Shown in pieces: positions 3,756-57,958 of a DNA stretch of 64,000 bases. Positions within the stretch are counted from its first letter, which is position 1. Each line of letters opens with the position of its first letter. The notes under the pieces were generated by a model that was not told the origin of the DNA, made no database searches, and saw only the letters and a list, made by a program, of their open reading frames with translations. The DNA lies in IMG/VR virus record IMGVR_UViG_3300027917_000018, positions 1 through 64,000 of that record. One strand, 5' to 3'. This DNA is from a virus. Position numbers and translations under genes: made by a program.

Positions 3756-5309
3756 ATGTCGCCAACTTTTTCGCTGATCTACACGAGCGTCCGGCCACAG
3801 ATGATTGGACCTATCCTCGCCACCTGGGTCGAACGCTGCGCCAACAAGGAAGCCATCGAAATCATTCTGACCGTCGACGGTCCAGATGAAGGCTCCAAAG
3901 CGGTGGCCGCCGACCTGGCCACCAAAATGCCCATGCTGCGCTGGTTTGAGCAGCCCGAGGGGCCGTTCAACTGCGTCAAGGGCTGGAACCTGGCAGCCTC
4001 GAAAGCCACCGGCAAAGTGTTCGTCCAGGTGACCGACGACATGATGCCGCCGCAGCACTGGGACGAGGAACTGCTGAAGCTTAAGCCCGAAGGGTGGATT
4101 GACGGCGAGTTCGCCGTTCACGTGGAGGACGGCTATGTCCACGACCTCATGGTCTTAGCTATCATCACCCGCAAGCGCTACGAGCGGTTCGGTTACTTCT
4201 TCTACCCGGATTACGAGAGCATGTTTTGCGACACCGAGCTGACCACAGTCGCCTACCGGGACAAGGTGGTCATCAACGCCAAGCACCTGCTCTTCGAGCA
4301 CATGCACCCGGACGCGCAAAAGCGTAAACGGGACAAGGTTGATCTGGTCCACGCGTCCAAGGAGCGCTGGGTGCGCGGCGAGACGCTTTTCAACCACCGC
4401 CGGGAACGCAATTTTCCAATCGATGTGGGACCCCAGGCGGACAAGACAGCCAAGCCGGTAGGCTACAAGTTTTGCGTTTACACTCAGGCCACCCGCGACG
4501 ATTTCTGCCTACTGGAGGTCGGCAAGCGCATGATGGAGGAAGGCGTCAACGATTTCTTCTTCAGTATTCCAGACGAGTACTGGGCGGGCCGCCCGACGCC
4601 GGAAGAAAACATGTCGCAGGTCGAGCAGGTTGCCCAGCAGTTGCGGCAGCTCGGGGCCAACGTGCGCACCATGCGCCATCCAGTCAGGAAGTACCGCTGG
4701 CCCGGCGACAGCCGGATTACAGTTGAGACCCGCGTGCGCAATGACGCTCTGGCTGAGATTCGTCGGGCAGGATTCGAGCATGTGCTGATCGTCGATGGGG
4801 ACGAGCTGTGGAAGCGCGGCACCCTGAACTACGTTAGAAAGGTTCTCGATGAGTGGCATCCGCTTTCCATCAACTGCCTCATGATCCCCGTCGTGGGCCT
4901 GCCAGGTTACCCCATCGACGGGGCTACCGATGTGGCCGTGATCTACCTTAACTCAAAGGTTCCCTTCAAGGAATGCCGCACGCCCCACGGTGATCAGTTT
5001 CGGCTGCAAATGCCACAGGTTGTCCACTTTACCGGCACCAGAAAGACGATGGAGGAAACGATCCAGAAGCATCTGGACAGCGGCCACTACGACGATCCCG
5101 AGTACGATTTCGACTACTGGATCAAAAACGTCCTGCCCAACATTAAGCCTGGCTATCGTCACACGTTCCCGGACGGCCAGGTCGGCATCCACATGTTCAA
5201 GCGCTATCAAATCTGGCCTTCTGTTCGGCACTGGATGCCGGAAGAGGTCACGCAGTTGCCGCAGGCGCTTCATCCCTATCTCGGTATCGAGCAGCCTGCG
5301 ACCCCGTGA
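3756..5309 (+). CDS. Two-domain GT2-like glycosyltransferase
   Basis: A 517-residue protein. The N-terminal half (about 1-215) looks like a GT-A fold: a beta-alpha start, T-V-D-G-P-D-E, then V-T-D-D-M near residue 94, the likely metal- and nucleotide-sugar-binding acidic motif. A second GT-A-like domain starts near residue 235 and has L-I-V-D-G-D-E-L-W near 346. Two catalytic-type domains in one chain could add two sugars in turn. The acceptor is unknown (virion protein, modified DNA base or host surface). A GT9-like enzyme follows. Starts at ATG 3756 in a 19-base divergent gap. Confidence 0.7.
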   Translation: MSPTFSLIYTSVRPQMIGPILATWVERCANKEAIEIILTVDGPDEGSKAVAADLATKMPMLRWFEQPEGPFNCVKGWNLAASKATGKVFVQVTDDMMPPQHWDEELLKLKPEGWIDGEFAVHVEDGYVHDLMVLAIITRKRYERFGYFFYPDYESMFCDTELTTVAYRDKVVINAKHLLFEHMHPDAQKRKRDKVDLVHASKERWVRGETLFNHRRERNFPIDVGPQADKTAKPVGYKFCVYTQATRDDFCLLEVGKRMMEEGVNDFFFSIPDEYWAGRPTPEENMSQVEQVAQQLRQLGANVRTMRHPVRKYRWPGDSRITVETRVRNDALAEIRRAGFEHVLIVDGDELWKRGTLNYVRKVLDEWHPLSINCLMIPVVGLPGYPIDGATDVAVIYLNSKVPFKECRTPHGDQFRLQMPQVVHFTGTRKTMEETIQKHLDSGHYDDPEYDFDYWIKNVLPNIKPGYRHTFPDGQVGIHMFKRYQIWPSVRHWMPEEVTQLPQALHPYLGIEQPATP

Positions 5310-14644: not shown

Positions 14645-14931
14645 AGAAAACGCTCACCCGCGAGGACGCCGCCCTGGAAATCTCCCAACGCGTGGGCTGC
14701 GCGATCACGCTCGCCCGGCGCTTTCTGGATACGAGCATCGACGTGATGAGTGACGCGCTCCTGGCAGGACGCAAGGTCGAATTCCGCAATTTTGGCGTTT
14801 TTCGTGTGGTGAAGCGAAAGCCTCGCGTGGGCCGCAACCCCAAGGAGCCGGAGGCCGGGCGCATTGAAATCCCGTCCAAGCTGGGAATCAAGTTCAAGAC
14901 CAGTCCCCACCTGGAAAAGAAGCTCAAATGA
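14641..14931 (+). CDS. HU/IHF-family DNA-binding protein
   Basis: A 96-residue protein from ATG 14641 (usual HU length about 90). It has the N-terminal helical half, then V-E-F-R-N-F-G-V-F and a beta-arm R-x-G-R-N-P-K, matching the HU consensus RNPxT arm that bends DNA. It could compact phage DNA or assist recombination and transcription. ATGA overlap with the membrane-protein gene. Confidence 0.9.
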   Translation: MKKTLTREDAALEISQRVGCAITLARRFLDTSIDVMSDALLAGRKVEFRNFGVFRVVKRKPRVGRNPKEPEAGRIEIPSKLGIKFKTSPHLEKKLK

Positions 14932-15821
14932 CCAGCGCGATTGCCATTCTGACCTACCGCAGACTGCCGGTCCTGGCCAAGATGTTCGAGGGCCTGTTGG
15001 CGCACTGCAAGGACTATCCGATCGCTGTTTTCGAGGATTTCGGGCGCACGGACGGCACGGCCCGTTGGCTGGCCGGGGACGCTAAGCCGGAATCGAGGGA
15101 AGACCTGTTGGCTACCTACTGCCGCATGCCCTGGGGCGAAGCCTTCCTGGGCACCGAGAACCTGGGTGTGGCCAGCAATTCCAACCGGGCGCTTCGCTGG
15201 TTCGAGGAAGGCGGCTGGGACCATCTGTGCCTCTGCAACGACGATCTTGAGGTCCTGGGCGACTTCCCGGCTTTTTATGCCAAGGCTCATCAGGAGCTGG
15301 GCATCAATTTCTTTTGCTTCAATGATTTTTGGGAATGGCCCACGCATCGTTGGGCGCTGTGCCGGTCACGCGGCTATCGTTTACGAATTTTTCGCCAAAT
15401 GACCGGCATCATGTGCTCGGTCACGCGAAAGGCTTTCAACGAGGTCGGGTACTTCGACGCCAGGTTCGGCAAGTTCGGCCAAGAGCACTGCGATTGGACC
15501 AATCGTTTTCGATTTACGGGAAACATCCGGCTCGACGGCGTCGATCAGCCGTGCGTCGACGTGGAACCCACCAACCCGGACGGATCAGCGGGGCAAGCTG
15601 TCCTCAAACACCAGGAATGCCCCACTTGTGTCATCGGCGACGAGCGCGCCCGCGCTGACCAGGAAGCTTTGGAGGCACTAAGGGAGGTTGCCAAGGGCTA
15701 TAATACCGAGTCCAACTACAAGCCGTTCGCCCTGCGCTCGCCGCGCTTTGTCGGAGGTTTTCTCAATCAGGGAATCCCGACCGAGCAACTCAAGGGTTAT
15801 CGAACGGTCACGTGTAGTTAG
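14928..15821 (+). CDS. GT2-family glycosyltransferase
   Basis: A 297-residue protein. The start A-I-A-I-L-T-Y-R-R is the classic GT-A opening, followed by an E-N-L-G-V-A-S-N-S-N-R-A-L motif (nucleotide and ribose side) and C-N-D-D-L near residue 103 as the metal-binding acidic motif. It transfers a sugar from a nucleotide donor to an unknown acceptor. It sits between the HU-like gene and the head block, away from the two other glycosyltransferase clusters. ATGA overlap with HU. CGTTTACG at 15378 uses the Leu codon TTA. Confidence 0.8.
   Translation: MTSAIAILTYRRLPVLAKMFEGLLAHCKDYPIAVFEDFGRTDGTARWLAGDAKPESREDLLATYCRMPWGEAFLGTENLGVASNSNRALRWFEEGGWDHLCLCNDDLEVLGDFPAFYAKAHQELGINFFCFNDFWEWPTHRWALCRSRGYRLRIFRQMTGIMCSVTRKAFNEVGYFDARFGKFGQEHCDWTNRFRFTGNIRLDGVDQPCVDVEPTNPDGSAGQAVLKHQECPTCVIGDERARADQEALEALREVAKGYNTESNYKPFALRSPRFVGGFLNQGIPTEQLKGYRTVTCS
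15815..15820 (+). promoter_or_regulatory. TAGTTA element
   Basis: TAGTTA lies 7 bases before ATG 15828, at the start of the head block. It overlaps the TAG stop of the glycosyltransferase gene. Confidence 0.4.
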
Positions 15822-52715: not shown

Positions 52716-53249
52716 GTGCGCGTGCCTTGGCCTCAATATCCACTGGTTTCTGGCTTGTTGGCGATCACCCGCCCGGATCGATTGGCTTTCGGTCGGGCCA
52801 CGCTAATGAGCTTCATGGCTCAAGACTGGCCGTGCCTGGAAGCAGTGGTATTCAACACGACCGATAGGAAGCTCAACCCGCCACGGGGCATCAGGGAAAT
52901 ACGGCTTAGAGCGATGCCACAGGCTCAGATGCTTGGCCTCTGTCGCCACAACGCCGACGGCCAGTATTGCGTGGTTCTGGAAGACGATACTTGGTACGGC
53001 CAGGGGCTCGTCACGACGCTGATGGAGCACGCGGAGCAGGACGCCTTGGTGCTCCTGCGGCGCAAGGTTCGTTATTCGGTCCAGGAGCAGCGTGGGTACT
53101 TGGTCGAGGACGACAGCATTGTGTGCCCGCTGTTTCCAAGGGTCCACCCAGCACCCTATGGTCCAAAGCTGTCGGAGATGGCCGCTCAGTTTCAGTACGT
53201 TCGGCACGCCGATGGCCCGGTTGACCTGATGGTGAAGTTCACGCGATGA
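52716..53249 (+). CDS. Small GT-A-like glycosyltransferase
   Basis: A 177-residue protein, GTG start at 52716. L-E-D-D-T-W-Y near 89-95 is a DxD-type motif, and the early A-I-T-R-P-D-R with F-M-A-Q-D-W-P resembles short GT2-like enzymes. It opens the sugar-modification island and overlaps the fused enzyme by 4 bases. Activity is inferred. Confidence 0.6.
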   Translation: MRVPWPQYPLVSGLLAITRPDRLAFGRATLMSFMAQDWPCLEAVVFNTTDRKLNPPRGIREIRLRAMPQAQMLGLCRHNADGQYCVVLEDDTWYGQGLVTTLMEHAEQDALVLLRRKVRYSVQEQRGYLVEDDSIVCPLFPRVHPAPYGPKLSEMAAQFQYVRHADGPVDLMVKFTR

Positions 53250-54979
53250 AAGCTCTGGAAAAGGCAGTGCGCGAGTGGTCTTCGATCAAAGGCTACGCTC
53301 CTGAGCGCTTCGACCCCTTCAGCGTGGATACCGGCATCAAGGTTTACGATCGGAATAGGCCGCGCAGGTTTTACCACAGCGGCGACATCGGCGACATCAT
53401 CTATGCTTTGCCCACCATGCGGGCCTTGGGCGGAGGAGAGCTGGTCCTGGGGCCGCAAATGCGCCAGGATGTGCGGGCCACGGTTCGGGCGGCAATGACC
53501 GAGAAAATGGCCGCGATGCTCCGTCCGCTGCTGCAATTGCAGAGCTACGTCAAGTGGGTGGCCTTCGCGCCCGCAATGCCGGAAGTGGACGTTGACCTGA
53601 ACAAGTTCCGCGAGGAGCTGGTAGTCGACAGCGCCGCCTTCCGGCGCACAGGCCGTCTGCTGAATCTCGCCGAGGCACACTTGAAGCGCTTCCGGCTGGA
53701 TTTGCGCGAATGCCAAAAACCGTGGCTGGTTGTCGACCGGGCGGTGGCCATTAAAGACCGGCCCGTAATTCTGCACCGCTCGCCCCGGTGGCGGAATTCG
53801 GATTTTCCTTGGCAGGACGTGCTCGAAAAATACGGATCGCAGGCACTCTTTGTCGGACTGCGAAGCGAGTACGACGACTTCGTGTCCGACTGGGGCGCTG
53901 ACCTGCCGTTCTACCAAATCAGCGACTTTCTGGACATGGCCAGGCTGATCGCCGGGTCCGAGCTGTTCATCGGTAACCAGAGTTTTCCATACGCCCTAGC
54001 TGAGGGCATGAAGAAGACTTCGCTGCTCGAAGTATGGCCGGATGGTCCGAACTGTCTGTTTCAGAGGCCCAACGCCAACTACGGCCTGGGCAAAAACGTT
54101 TACATTCCAAACCTCAAGTTCAGTATGGTCGAAGAAAAGCTGACTGAATGCCCGATGTGCGGCACTGCCGACGCTGTCCCCGTCAGGCGGAGCGCGGACA
54201 TCGTTTCCTGCAACAGCTGCAATCTCGTTTACCTGCGAACTCGCATGAGCGCCGACAGCATGGAGGAGCACTATCAGCGGTACGCTGACGGCACATCTCA
54301 CATGCGGCTGCCTGAGCGGATCGAGGAAGTCCGCACGTCCGGCTTGCGTCGGGAGTACTTCATGCAAGAGCTTCTGGAGCACGTCAAATCCGGCGCGTTA
54401 CTGGACATCGGGAGCGGGTGGGGTGCCTGGCTGTCCAACGCCAGGGCCAAGGGCTTTTCGGTGCGCGGTGTCGAAATATGCCGTAAAATGGCCGATTTCG
54501 CCTGTTCGGTCCTCGGCGTTCCCACTATGACTCGGCAGCTTGAAGACTGCGGCTTCGCCAACGCCGACTTTGACGTGGTCACGGCGATTCACTCGCTGGA
54601 ACACCTGCCCTACCCGAAAACGGCGTGGGAGACTGTGCGCCGCATTCTTCGTCCGGGCGGTTTCTTCTGCGGCATCGTTCCCAACTTCGAGTCATTGTGC
54701 TCCAGAGCACAGAAGGAGGGATGGATGTGGCTGGACCCGAACATGCACTACGTCCACTATACCGAAAACACCCTGCGGCAGTGCTTGGAACGCTTCGGGT
54801 TCCAGCCAATTCGCATTTACACCGCGACCGGTGACTTTGATCCGGGCCAGGTCGCCAAAGTGGTCTCAGCCAGCTCACAAGTACCGATCGGCGAAGAGGA
54901 GATGAAAAGCCGCATTGAGGCAGTCTGCGCCAGCGGCGAGGGAGAGGAATTACGATGGTTTGCACAAAAGAAGAGCTGA
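53246..54979 (+). CDS. GT9-like domain fused to a SAM methyltransferase
   Basis: A 577-residue fusion. Residues 1-295 have the GT9 start H-S-G-D-I-G-D-I-I-Y and a second half with I-A-G-S-E-L-F-I-G-N-Q-S-F-P. Residues 300-330 are a zinc ribbon (C-P-M-C 302-305, C-N-S-C 322-325). Residues 375-500 are a class I methyltransferase: L-L-D-I-G-S-G-W-G (385-393) and F-D-V-V-T-A-I-H-S-L-E-H-L motifs. The zinc-ribbon/methyltransferase pair resembles sugar methyltransferases. It may add a methylated sugar in one step. Next gene overlaps by 25 bases. Confidence 0.75.
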   Translation: MKALEKAVREWSSIKGYAPERFDPFSVDTGIKVYDRNRPRRFYHSGDIGDIIYALPTMRALGGGELVLGPQMRQDVRATVRAAMTEKMAAMLRPLLQLQSYVKWVAFAPAMPEVDVDLNKFREELVVDSAAFRRTGRLLNLAEAHLKRFRLDLRECQKPWLVVDRAVAIKDRPVILHRSPRWRNSDFPWQDVLEKYGSQALFVGLRSEYDDFVSDWGADLPFYQISDFLDMARLIAGSELFIGNQSFPYALAEGMKKTSLLEVWPDGPNCLFQRPNANYGLGKNVYIPNLKFSMVEEKLTECPMCGTADAVPVRRSADIVSCNSCNLVYLRTRMSADSMEEHYQRYADGTSHMRLPERIEEVRTSGLRREYFMQELLEHVKSGALLDIGSGWGAWLSNARAKGFSVRGVEICRKMADFACSVLGVPTMTRQLEDCGFANADFDVVTAIHSLEHLPYPKTAWETVRRILRPGGFFCGIVPNFESLCSRAQKEGWMWLDPNMHYVHYTENTLRQCLERFGFQPIRIYTATGDFDPGQVAKVVSASSQVPIGEEEMKSRIEAVCASGEGEELRWFAQKKS

Positions 54980-55857
54980 AAAAGATCGCTGTGGCCATTC
55001 CGTCCTATCGGAGGCCCGAATTCCTGAAGCGATGTATCGCCGCTGTAGCCGCCATGCCGGAGGTCCAGGCAGGCGTCCCGGTCTTCCTGCTGGCTGACGG
55101 CGGCTTGGAATCGCAACGAGAGCGCTGTATGGCCGCTTTTCTGGCGGAGTACGTGCCCGACAGGACCGTGATCTGCCGCACGGATCGCCACCGGCAGCCT
55201 CGGAATATGATCCTTGGTAAGCAAGAGCTGTTTAGCAGGGGCTTTGAGTGGGTGGCGATCATCGAAGAAGATGTCGTTGTTCACCAGCATTGGCTGGCGC
55301 TCATGCTTTCGCTACATCGGTGGGCGGACGAGAACTTTGACAACTGCGGCATGGTTGGGAGCAGCATTGTGGACGACGCCAACGACCCAGCCTGGGTTTC
55401 GGATGCTGGTCAGTCCATTTGCAATCATCTGATTTCAAAGCGCGCTTGGACCCGGATATGGCCGATGCTCTGCGATTACCTGGATCGCGTGCCTGAAAGC
55501 GAGGAACGCGACGACCCGCGTGTGATTCAGGTCCAGCGTTGGTTCAATGAGCAGGCCGCCAGAATTCCCGCAGGCGGGCCGCGCAGCATTCCTCACCACT
55601 GGCGGTCGGAGCCCAAAGACTTCTACTTAGCGGAATCGGTGCCCGCCAGCCAGGATGCTGCGCACGATCTGGCCCTTCGTGTAAACGGCATGGCTAGGCT
55701 TGTTTGCGACGCCAATCGGGCCGTGCATATCGGCAGCTATGGCGAGCACACAACGCAGAACGAGAAGTACGATCAAACCTTAAAAGGCTGGCCTGAAGAT
55801 GCCGACCGAACCTCATTTGTCTTGCGGAGGAAAAGGCCCGCTCCCGCCGTGGCGTGA
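54955..55857 (+). CDS. GT2-family glycosyltransferase
   Basis: A 300-residue protein. K-I-A-V-A-I-P-S-Y-R-R-P opens the GT-A fold, followed by L-A-D-G-G and, near residue 101, I-I-E-E-D-V-V as the metal/donor site. It probably extends the glycan made by its neighbours. A purine-rich GAGGAA sits 7 bases before its ATG, one of few good Shine-Dalgarno sites in the window. Confidence 0.75.
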   Translation: MVCTKEELKKIAVAIPSYRRPEFLKRCIAAVAAMPEVQAGVPVFLLADGGLESQRERCMAAFLAEYVPDRTVICRTDRHRQPRNMILGKQELFSRGFEWVAIIEEDVVVHQHWLALMLSLHRWADENFDNCGMVGSSIVDDANDPAWVSDAGQSICNHLISKRAWTRIWPMLCDYLDRVPESEERDDPRVIQVQRWFNEQAARIPAGGPRSIPHHWRSEPKDFYLAESVPASQDAAHDLALRVNGMARLVCDANRAVHIGSYGEHTTQNEKYDQTLKGWPEDADRTSFVLRRKRPAPAVA

Positions 55858-55876
55858 CAGCCTGTGGTTCAAAGCC

Positions 55877-56440
55877 ATGATCCAGGTTTTGACGGACGGG
55901 CCGCGCCATTCGCTGGTAAACCCGAGCCGCCTGTGGATTCTGGCCGAAGCATGCTCTTTGGTTCGGGGCCTTGTCGGCTGTGCCGTTGAATTTGGTGTTT
56001 ACCGGGGAGGCTCGGCCTGGTTCCTACGAAATGTGCTGCCATCCGACGTGGTTCTCCATCTGTACGATAGTTTTCAGGGCCTGCCAAAGCCATCGCCCCA
56101 CGACGGGTTTCACGAGGGCGATTTCGGGGACACGTCCCTCGATCAGATCAACGACTTGGCGCAAAAGCCCAACGTGGTAATTCATACTGGCGTGTGGAGC
56201 GCCGACGTGGAGGTCCCTGAATCGGTTTGTTTTGCCCATCTGGACTGCGACATTTACCCAAGCGCCAAGGATGCGCTCGCCGCCCTTTGGCCGAAGATGC
56301 TGCCCGGCGGACTGATTGTCTGCGACGACTACGGTTTTCCGAATTGCCAGGGCGTTTACAAAGCTGTAAACGAATTTATCGCCAGCTACGGTGTCCGCCC
56401 CATGCGGCTTGAAACAGGCCAATGCCTGCTGTTCCGATGA
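55877..56440 (+). CDS. TylF-like (macrocin O-) methyltransferase
   Basis: A 187-residue protein from ATG 55877; an earlier ATG at 55799 would overlap the previous gene by 59 bases. A-V-E-F-G-V-Y-R-G-G-S-A near 36-47 is SAM motif I, then L-Y-D-S-F-Q-G-L-P, and A-H-L-D-C-D-I-Y with G-G-L-I-V-C-D-D-Y, all TylF hallmarks (metal-dependent sugar O-methylation). It likely methylates a sugar of the island product. A paralogue lies at 57335. Confidence 0.8.
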   Translation: MIQVLTDGPRHSLVNPSRLWILAEACSLVRGLVGCAVEFGVYRGGSAWFLRNVLPSDVVLHLYDSFQGLPKPSPHDGFHEGDFGDTSLDQINDLAQKPNVVIHTGVWSADVEVPESVCFAHLDCDIYPSAKDALAALWPKMLPGGLIVCDDYGFPNCQGVYKAVNEFIASYGVRPMRLETGQCLLFR

Positions 56441-57366
56441 AAAGGCAAAAGATCGATGATCGGTTTCCAAGCAAAGTGATGTACAGGACGCATCCGTGCG
56501 TTTTTGAGCGCTCAATCGCGCCCGAGCCTGGAACCGCGTGGGCGGTGCGGGGACCCAGGCGGCTGATGACTTACCGCGTAGAGCTTGAGCCCCTGAACCA
56601 GCGCAGCTCGACGTGCCTGTGTCCTCTCGACGATAACTGGACGCCCATGTACCATTTGGAGCACCACCTGGATTTCGGTCTTCCGCGCAATGAACAGCGC
56701 ATGGCCATCGAGGAGGACTGCCGGTTGTTCAATTTTTGCGGCAGGGTTTGGTTCAACATCACCAACCGCAACGATACGTTCCTGGGCGAGCTGGATTGGC
56801 AGGCCCACGACCCGAAGGTGGTCGGCTGCGGCATTCTCGCGTTTCCGTTTGAGGTCGGCAGCACGGAAAAGAACTGGATGTTCTTTGAACAGGGTGGCCT
56901 GCTCTACGGGGTCAGATGGGTTCACGCCCACGTCGTTCATCGGATTTACCCCGACTTCCAGAAAGGTCACGCGGTTAGCGAGCCTATCGTCCACGAATAC
57001 CGGCTGGACTGGCCGCATGGCCGTCCCCACGGCGGCACGTCGCCAGTTGCGATCGGCGACGAGTACCTCAGCCTTTTTCAGTCCAGCAAGCTCGCTGCGG
57101 TAAATGGCCGCAAAGACTACTACGTTGGCGTTTACGCTTTTGAGGCCAAGCCACCTTTTAGGGTTACGCGTGTGCCAAAAGAGCCTTTGATTTCTCCGCT
57201 GACCTGGCCCGAACATTCTGTCGGGTTCAATGGGCACAACACTTTCTTTCCGTTGGGCCTTGCACGAGAGAACGACACCTGGAGGGTCAGTCTTGGGGAT
57301 GACCGCGCCATGTGGCTGCTCGAATACAGCACCGATGAACTCCTCGACGCAACCAAACCTGTTTGA
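56437..57366 (+). CDS. GH130-like five-bladed propeller protein
   Basis: A 309-residue protein, ATG 56437 (ATGA overlap). The second half has G-G-T-S-P-V-A-I-G-D-E-Y-L-S, then Y-Y-V-G-V-Y-A-F-E-A-K-P-P-F and a final F-N-G-H-N-T-F-F-P-L-G, matching the blade pattern of GH130 mannoside phosphorylases and relatives. It could cut or phosphorolyse a mannose-containing glycan or bind it. The acidic catalytic residue cannot be fixed by eye. Confidence 0.6.
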   Translation: MKRQKIDDRFPSKVMYRTHPCVFERSIAPEPGTAWAVRGPRRLMTYRVELEPLNQRSSTCLCPLDDNWTPMYHLEHHLDFGLPRNEQRMAIEEDCRLFNFCGRVWFNITNRNDTFLGELDWQAHDPKVVGCGILAFPFEVGSTEKNWMFFEQGGLLYGVRWVHAHVVHRIYPDFQKGHAVSEPIVHEYRLDWPHGRPHGGTSPVAIGDEYLSLFQSSKLAAVNGRKDYYVGVYAFEAKPPFRVTRVPKEPLISPLTWPEHSVGFNGHNTFFPLGLARENDTWRVSLGDDRAMWLLEYSTDELLDATKPV

Positions 57367-57958
57367 GCTGATGGAGCAGACGATGGGAATGCTCTGCTTT
57401 CCCAGGGCCACCCATCTGGCGCATTACCTTCTTCAGACGGCCACGGTTCCAGGAGCGGTGGCTGAATTTGGCTGCCACCAGGGCCGTACGGCGGCCTTTA
57501 TGACGGCTCTGACCAAGAAGCACGTTTACGTTTACGATAGCTTTGCCGGGCTGCCGCCACCGTCGGAGCATGACAGGCCATCGGAGGTCTTCCACGAGGG
57601 CGCGATGGCTATAAGCCCGCAAGAGCTGGTAGACCTATTCAAGAGACTCGGGCTGCGCACACCGATCATTGAGCCCGGCTTCTTCAAGGACCTCCAGCCC
57701 CACCAGTTGCCCAAGGAAATCGCTTTTGCCCACTTGGACGGCGACTTCTACGAAAGCATTGCGGGGCCGCTGTACGTGGTCTGGCCGAGGCTGTCGCCCG
57801 GAGGCTACATCGTGGTCGACGATTGGGACTGGGACCAGCTACCGGGCGTCACGGACGCGGTCAAGGCGTGGTCGAAAGATATAGGGATCAAGCCGGAGGT
57901 TCAGTACGGCACGGACGGGGCAGGATGCCACCAGGCGGTGCTGCACAAACCTAGTTAG
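57335..57958 (+). CDS. Second TylF-like methyltransferase
   Basis: A 207-residue protein from ATG 57335 (32-base overlap); ATG 57371 is an alternative. V-A-E-F-G-C-H-Q-G-R-T-A is SAM motif I, then V-Y-D-S-F-A-G-L-P, A-H-L-D-G-D-F-Y and G-G-Y-I-V-V-D-D-W, parallel to the 55877 protein, so the two are paralogues in a tandem with the propeller between. CGTTTACGTTTACG (57523-57536) is the only overlapping pair of the octamer. Last gene of the island; overlaps the convergent gene by 8 bases. Confidence 0.8.
   Translation: MNSSTQPNLFELMEQTMGMLCFPRATHLAHYLLQTATVPGAVAEFGCHQGRTAAFMTALTKKHVYVYDSFAGLPPPSEHDRPSEVFHEGAMAISPQELVDLFKRLGLRTPIIEPGFFKDLQPHQLPKEIAFAHLDGDFYESIAGPLYVVWPRLSPGGYIVVDDWDWDQLPGVTDAVKAWSKDIGIKPEVQYGTDGAGCHQAVLHKPS

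Follow-up and report, generated by a model that had tools for sequence, protein, structure and literature searches.

A conserved jumbo-phage cassette of glycosyltransferase-type, methyltransferase and GH130-like genes and its possible role in virion glycosylation

Results

Gene content of the island

The window analysed here is a stretch of 64,000 nucleotides, corresponding to the first 64 kb of G000, a virus record of 203 kb that is a contractile-tailed jumbo phage. Between its tail and DNA-replication genes, six overlapping ORFs follow one another on the plus strand without gaps from position 52716 to 57958 (Table 1), and all six were found as proposed by the initial annotation. The island is bordered by the gene of an M23-peptidase-like protein, which adjoins the baseplate genes, and by a DNA primase gene. 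Its left half recurs, within a stretch of 11.3 kb at 99.98% identity, on a 22-kb contig from a different IMG/VR record, and therefore is not an accident of assembly. Scans of promoters and terminators revealed nothing beyond chance.

Table 1. Positions, in the window, of the island genes, their flanks and the structural genes used as landmarks.
Feature	Start	End	Strand	Evidence
Head protease	17334
Major head protein	19041
Tail sheath	44219
Baseplate hub/lysozyme	49776
M23-peptidase-like protein (left flank)	51587	52711	+	weak PF01551
Short GT2-type glycosyltransferase, 177 aa	52716	53249	+	weak PF00535
Fusion of GT9-like domain (unproven), zinc ribbon and class I methyltransferase, 577 aa	53246	54979	+
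GT2-type glycosyltransferase, 300 aa	54955	55857	+	Glyco_tranf_2_3
TylF-family O-methyltransferase 1 (TylF1)	55799	56440	+	PF05711, E 2.9e-18
GH130-like five-bladed propeller protein	56422	57366	+	family profile and fold
TylF-family O-methyltransferase 2 (TylF2)	57230	57958	+	PF05711, E 2.8e-26
DNA primase (right flank)	58160	59221	+	phrog_47, E 7.7e-22

Comparison with the related contig L250 indicates that the GH130-like gene probably starts at 56437, with an ATGA overlap, instead of 56422, and that TylF2 probably starts at 57335 and not at 57230, which would leave a 32-bp overlap as in L250. TylF1 may start at 55877.

Both genes annotated as a short glycosyltransferase and as a GT2 gave sub-threshold profile matches in Pfam, namely a weak match to Glycos_transf_2 (E 0.023) for 52716 and a match to Glyco_tranf_2_3 slightly short of the cut-off (E 1.1e-5) for 54955. 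The short gene is backed by a homologue, the second GT2 domain of a 970-aa protein in L182, a contig from a relative of the window phage (30% identity, E 8e-13); this domain matches PF00535 with E 1.1e-9, which lends support to a GT2 type for 52716.

In the fusion protein, residues 375–522 match Methyltransf_23 (Pfam, E 1.9e-21), and the zinc-ribbon cysteines C302, C305, C322 and C325 (CxxC/CxxC) do not differ between the window and L250. Neither profile searches of Pfam, PHROGs and the PDB nor hhalign gave a match, to GT9 or otherwise, for the N-terminal domain of about 300 aa; its resemblance to GT9 is limited to the short motifs GDIGDIIYALP and IAGSELFIGNQS, and its structure model, built from two sequences, reached a pLDDT of 40, too poor for a fold search. 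Thus, of the GT9-methyltransferase fusion initially proposed, the zinc-ribbon methyltransferase half stood and the GT9 half is putative. A relative of the GT9-like domain is part of a longer protein in L252, encoded between capsid and tail genes and next to MT24 and GT2 genes.

The two TylF paralogues, against the curated PF05711 cut-off of 23 bits, scored 66.5 (TylF1) and 92.8 bits (TylF2), which bears out their annotation. Like the TylF/macrocin O-methyltransferases of this family they contain the LDxD and DDY/DDW motifs, and unlike them they are phage-borne and would act on a putative sugar acceptor. TylF2 is 41% identical to the TylF of L011, a more distant relative.

Further sugar genes were observed outside the island. 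At 14928–15821 the window encodes a lone phage-type glycosyltransferase, a short distance ahead of the genes for the head protease and the major head protein, and at 3756–5309 a single protein with a GT2 domain and a GDSL-like lipase/acylhydrolase domain. The count of at least six glycosyltransferase genes in the window, given by the initial annotation, holds only when the unproven GT9-like half-protein is included. More glycosyltransferase or methyltransferase genes are found at about 75 kb, 110 kb and 185–194 kb of the 203-kb record. The last region, beyond the window (about 185.3–194.1 kb; L010:2255-11073), is a second and larger sugar locus, containing FkbM and TylF methyltransferases, Methyltransf_24, GT2 genes, a hexapeptide acyltransferase and a radical SAM gene. 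The analysis supports the initial reading of a compact pathway for glycan modification that includes methyltransferases and a GH130-like propeller, and these further genes support the wealth of sugar genes in this phage.

Conservation of the cassette

As regards conservation, five of the six island genes recur in L250 in the same slot and order, which reads baseplate hub, M23 peptidase, short glycosyltransferase, fusion, GT2, a 161-aa protein, GH130-like, TylF2 and primase. The protein identities are 55% for the short glycosyltransferase, 63% for the fusion, 60% for the GT2, 48% for the GH130-like protein and 58% for TylF2, in comparison with 49–70% for the flank genes. In each shared gene pN (0.25–0.38) is well below pS (0.65–0.80), a sign of purifying selection that is meaningful as direction only, dS being near saturation in this comparison; the GH130-like gene diverges fastest (pN 0.38, pS 0.73). 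Recurrence in order together with pN well below pS excludes that the island is a chance assemblage, and the divergence, no faster than that of the tail and primase genes on either side, makes it an old, selected cassette. A recent acquisition was ruled out by this conservation at flank-like rates and by a codon use that is only mildly atypical (z from -0.3 to -2.8).

In place of TylF1, L250 has the different 161-aa protein, and a homologue of the latter, 74.5% identical, is encoded at 110 kb of G000. In L011 the M23 and primase genes again mark the borders, and the slot contains a GT-like domain joined to a GH130-like one, a GT-B enzyme, a TylF and another glycosyltransferase. It is a stable slot, part of whose content can be exchanged, and the island is a real, conserved glycan cassette.

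The GH130-like protein

The GH130-like protein of the window, searched alone, gave no convincing match in Pfam or PHROGs, including the GH130 profile, and it is the only one of 16 aligned family members that PF04041 does not match. The 16-member profile, searched against the PDB, matched the β-1,2-mannobiose phosphorylase 7fip (E 1.5e-17), Lin0857 (E 1.5e-16) and Uhgb_MS (E about 2e-14). Moreover, an AlphaFold2 model of the window protein (pLDDT 70, pTM 0.76) is most similar to GH130 5b0p (Z 22.6, rmsd 3.2 over 260 residues), and also resembles GT108 (Z 17.8–18.8). The GH130-like propeller first read from the sequence is thus upheld by remote homology, through the profile of its relatives, and by the predicted fold.

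Subsite -1 of Teth514_1789 is formed by Asn28, Asp98 and Asp287 (PMC4264767). In our own mapping through the alignment with 7fip, whose numbering seems shifted by 11, the equivalents are the family motifs FN, E-D-x-R and N-D, and the family keeps all three residues. The window copy retains E98-D99-x-R101 and D294, and D99, which corresponds to the catalytic Asp98 of Teth514_1789, is invariant across all aligned members. The equivalent of Asn28, an Asn in the 15 other cluster representatives, is a Glu (E29) in the window, while the family His (equivalent to H220 and aligned with the His of YHG in 7fip) is a Gln; further changes at family positions are Tyr to Arg, Arg to His and Asn293 to Asp. 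L250 has the loss of Asn, the Tyr-to-Arg and the Asn-to-Asp changes in common with the window and retains the His. Because the subsite -1 Asn is replaced by Glu, we call the window protein GH130-like and not a GH130 member, and the changes of Asn and His mean that its activity may differ.

The family shares the five-bladed propeller, the E-D-x-R motif and the Asp of subsite -1 with the GH130 phosphorylases (Teth514_1788/1789, Lin0857, Uhgb_MS) and with GT108 (Leishmania MTPs). Unlike these enzymes, it is phage-borne, lies in gene clusters that are probably biosynthetic and is fused to glycosyltransferases or methyltransferases in relatives, and its window copy is devoid of the subsite -1 Asn. 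In phosphorylases, phosphate is bound by three basic residues (PMC4599007).

Distribution and neighbourhoods of the family

Searches based on an alignment of two sequences yielded 74 viral loci and, in a first bacterial scan, no matches; a broader alignment found the family in 245 viral contigs, of which 80 were kept, and in 21 bacterial contigs. It was absent from the 50,697 GenBank records of isolate phages searched, and literature searches for GH130 together with bacteriophage returned nothing relevant. Two of the "bacterial" contigs, L087 and L090, look like phage from their scaffold or capsid neighbours; the bacterial relatives include, as judged by eye, polysaccharide loci (e.g. L107 and L098). 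In a tree the viral and bacterial proteins are intermixed, and its well-supported branches require at least three changes of label, phage contigs being among the "bacterial" rows; L250 is the sole well-supported partner of the window protein. The proteins of the Chlamydiota genome bins L093, L094, L095, L097, L099, L100, L101 and L103 form a well-supported clade, and some of them show, by eye, a hydrophobic N-terminus. A structure search of BFVD with the window model returned uncultured Caudovirales, pithoviruses, Indivirus and an Ectocarpus virus, which suggests that GH130-like propellers, as far as predicted structures go, may be widespread in large eukaryotic viruses too.

After grouping at 70% identity into 25 clusters, the GH130-like gene was found within 6 kb of a glycosyltransferase or methyltransferase gene in 21 clusters. 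In 13 clusters it has portal/terminase genes on one side and scaffold/capsid genes on the other, named here from our own seed profiles by gene order and by eye, a count that overstates independence as most of these clusters have one capsid lineage in common. Other lineages show a similar tendency: in L090 the gene directly follows a protease-capsid fusion gene (Pfam), and in L003 and L245 it follows a gene read as scaffold. The window and L250 fit in as well, their cassette being located beside baseplate genes. In L017, L021 and L042 one methyltransferase gene and the GH130-like gene make up a short cassette flanked by portal and scaffold genes.

Fusions were also observed, and Pfam confirmed three of them. 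A GH130-like domain is joined to a GT4-type domain in L084 and to a methyltransferase in L089, and the 970-aa protein mentioned above (L182:6913-9825) combines PG_binding, two GT2 domains and a GH130-like domain. The L182 gene follows homologues of window genes 11841, 12847 and 14270, which is the place taken in the window by the glycosyltransferase at 14928. In L011, L019 and L183 the GH130-like proteins have N-termini that are GT-like by motif only. In contigs of about 130 kb, such as L231 (2770-9549), the gene belongs to a long sugar cluster that also encodes a GT4-type protein of 822 aa and an apparent sugar aminotransferase.

Discussion

The reading that we prefer, to which we give an even chance, is that a vertically kept cassette of jumbo myoviruses builds a short O-methylated glycan, with a virion protein as its likeliest acceptor. 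The GT2-type enzymes would add sugars in the host cytoplasm; the GH130-like propeller would then add or exchange a sugar, probably mannose-like, working in the synthetic direction; finally, the zinc-ribbon and TylF methyltransferases would cap hydroxyls. A virion protein is favoured because GH130-like relatives sit inside the head-gene blocks of many phages, although virion genes are a large share of phage genomes and adjacency to them is weak evidence by itself. Of the three products offered by the initial annotation, the methylated virion glycan is thus the favoured one, remodelling of the host surface keeps some probability, and a hypermodified DNA base found little support.

The cassette could instead alter the surface glycans of the host, O-chain or capsule, during infection, for example to exclude competing phages. 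This we consider unlikely, but the least unlikely of the alternatives. The glycosyltransferase-rich hypervariable region of pelagimyophages is read as modifying the host O-chain (PMC7029224); it resembles the island in that clusters of such genes lie near tail genes in large myophages, and it differs in that the island is a conserved compact slot, and no GH130 is reported in the text as searched. The bacterial relatives in polysaccharide loci also speak for a surface role. Against it, the island encodes no flippase, polymerase or lipid-carrier enzyme and no clear membrane segment (top 19-residue hydropathy 1.69), and the location of relatives in head-assembly blocks agrees better with a virion glycan.

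It is rather improbable that, within a working cassette, the window GH130-like protein takes another donor or is a pseudoenzyme, and so serves in binding or structure. The changes at the family Asn, Tyr, Arg, His and Asn293, shared by L250 except for His, and the fastest divergence in the island are in line with this, while E98-D99-x-R101 and D294 are retained and pN (0.38) stays below pS (0.73).

The closest solved relatives being β-mannoside phosphorylases and hydrolases, the protein might also degrade glycans, either feeding the infected cell or trimming host glycans, with its neighbours as passengers. We hold this to be very unlikely: the loci read contain no degradation partners, and it is mainly because of the repeated fusion and neighbourhood with glycosyltransferases and methyltransferases that the building of a glycan is preferred over its degradation. 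Attachment of the glycan to phage DNA bases, of which phage glycosyltransferase clusters are capable (Pyle 2024, as cited in PMC12619734), is the least probable of all, since a search of the 203-kb record, possibly a fragment, for thymidylate-synthase/hydroxymethylase-type genes (PF00303) gave no match, the control being positive in 9 of 14 genomes.

Glycosylation of virions by way of phage glycosyltransferase genes is reported for mycobacteriophages (Freeman 2023, as cited in PMC12619734). As described there, that system and the island both consist of phage glycosyltransferase genes with a virion-protein target, putative in our case; the island adds methyltransferases and a GH130-like partner. 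Phage glycan cassettes are already known, and what is new is the partner with the propeller fold.

Beyond the preferred reading of this cassette, we tentatively propose, with somewhat less confidence than in the virion glycan itself, that in phages a propeller of the GH130 type has become a dedicated transferase for glycan building, acting together with partners of GT2, GT25 or GT4 type and with methyltransferases in the decoration of capsid or tail proteins. It would be in effect a new glycosyltransferase family, present in many uncultured phage lineages and, going by the structure search, perhaps in giant viruses. If this were true, virion glycosylation would be far commoner among phages in the environment than the small number of cultured cases implies, and a virion-decorating enzyme would have the propeller fold that is known chiefly from mannoside phosphorylases.
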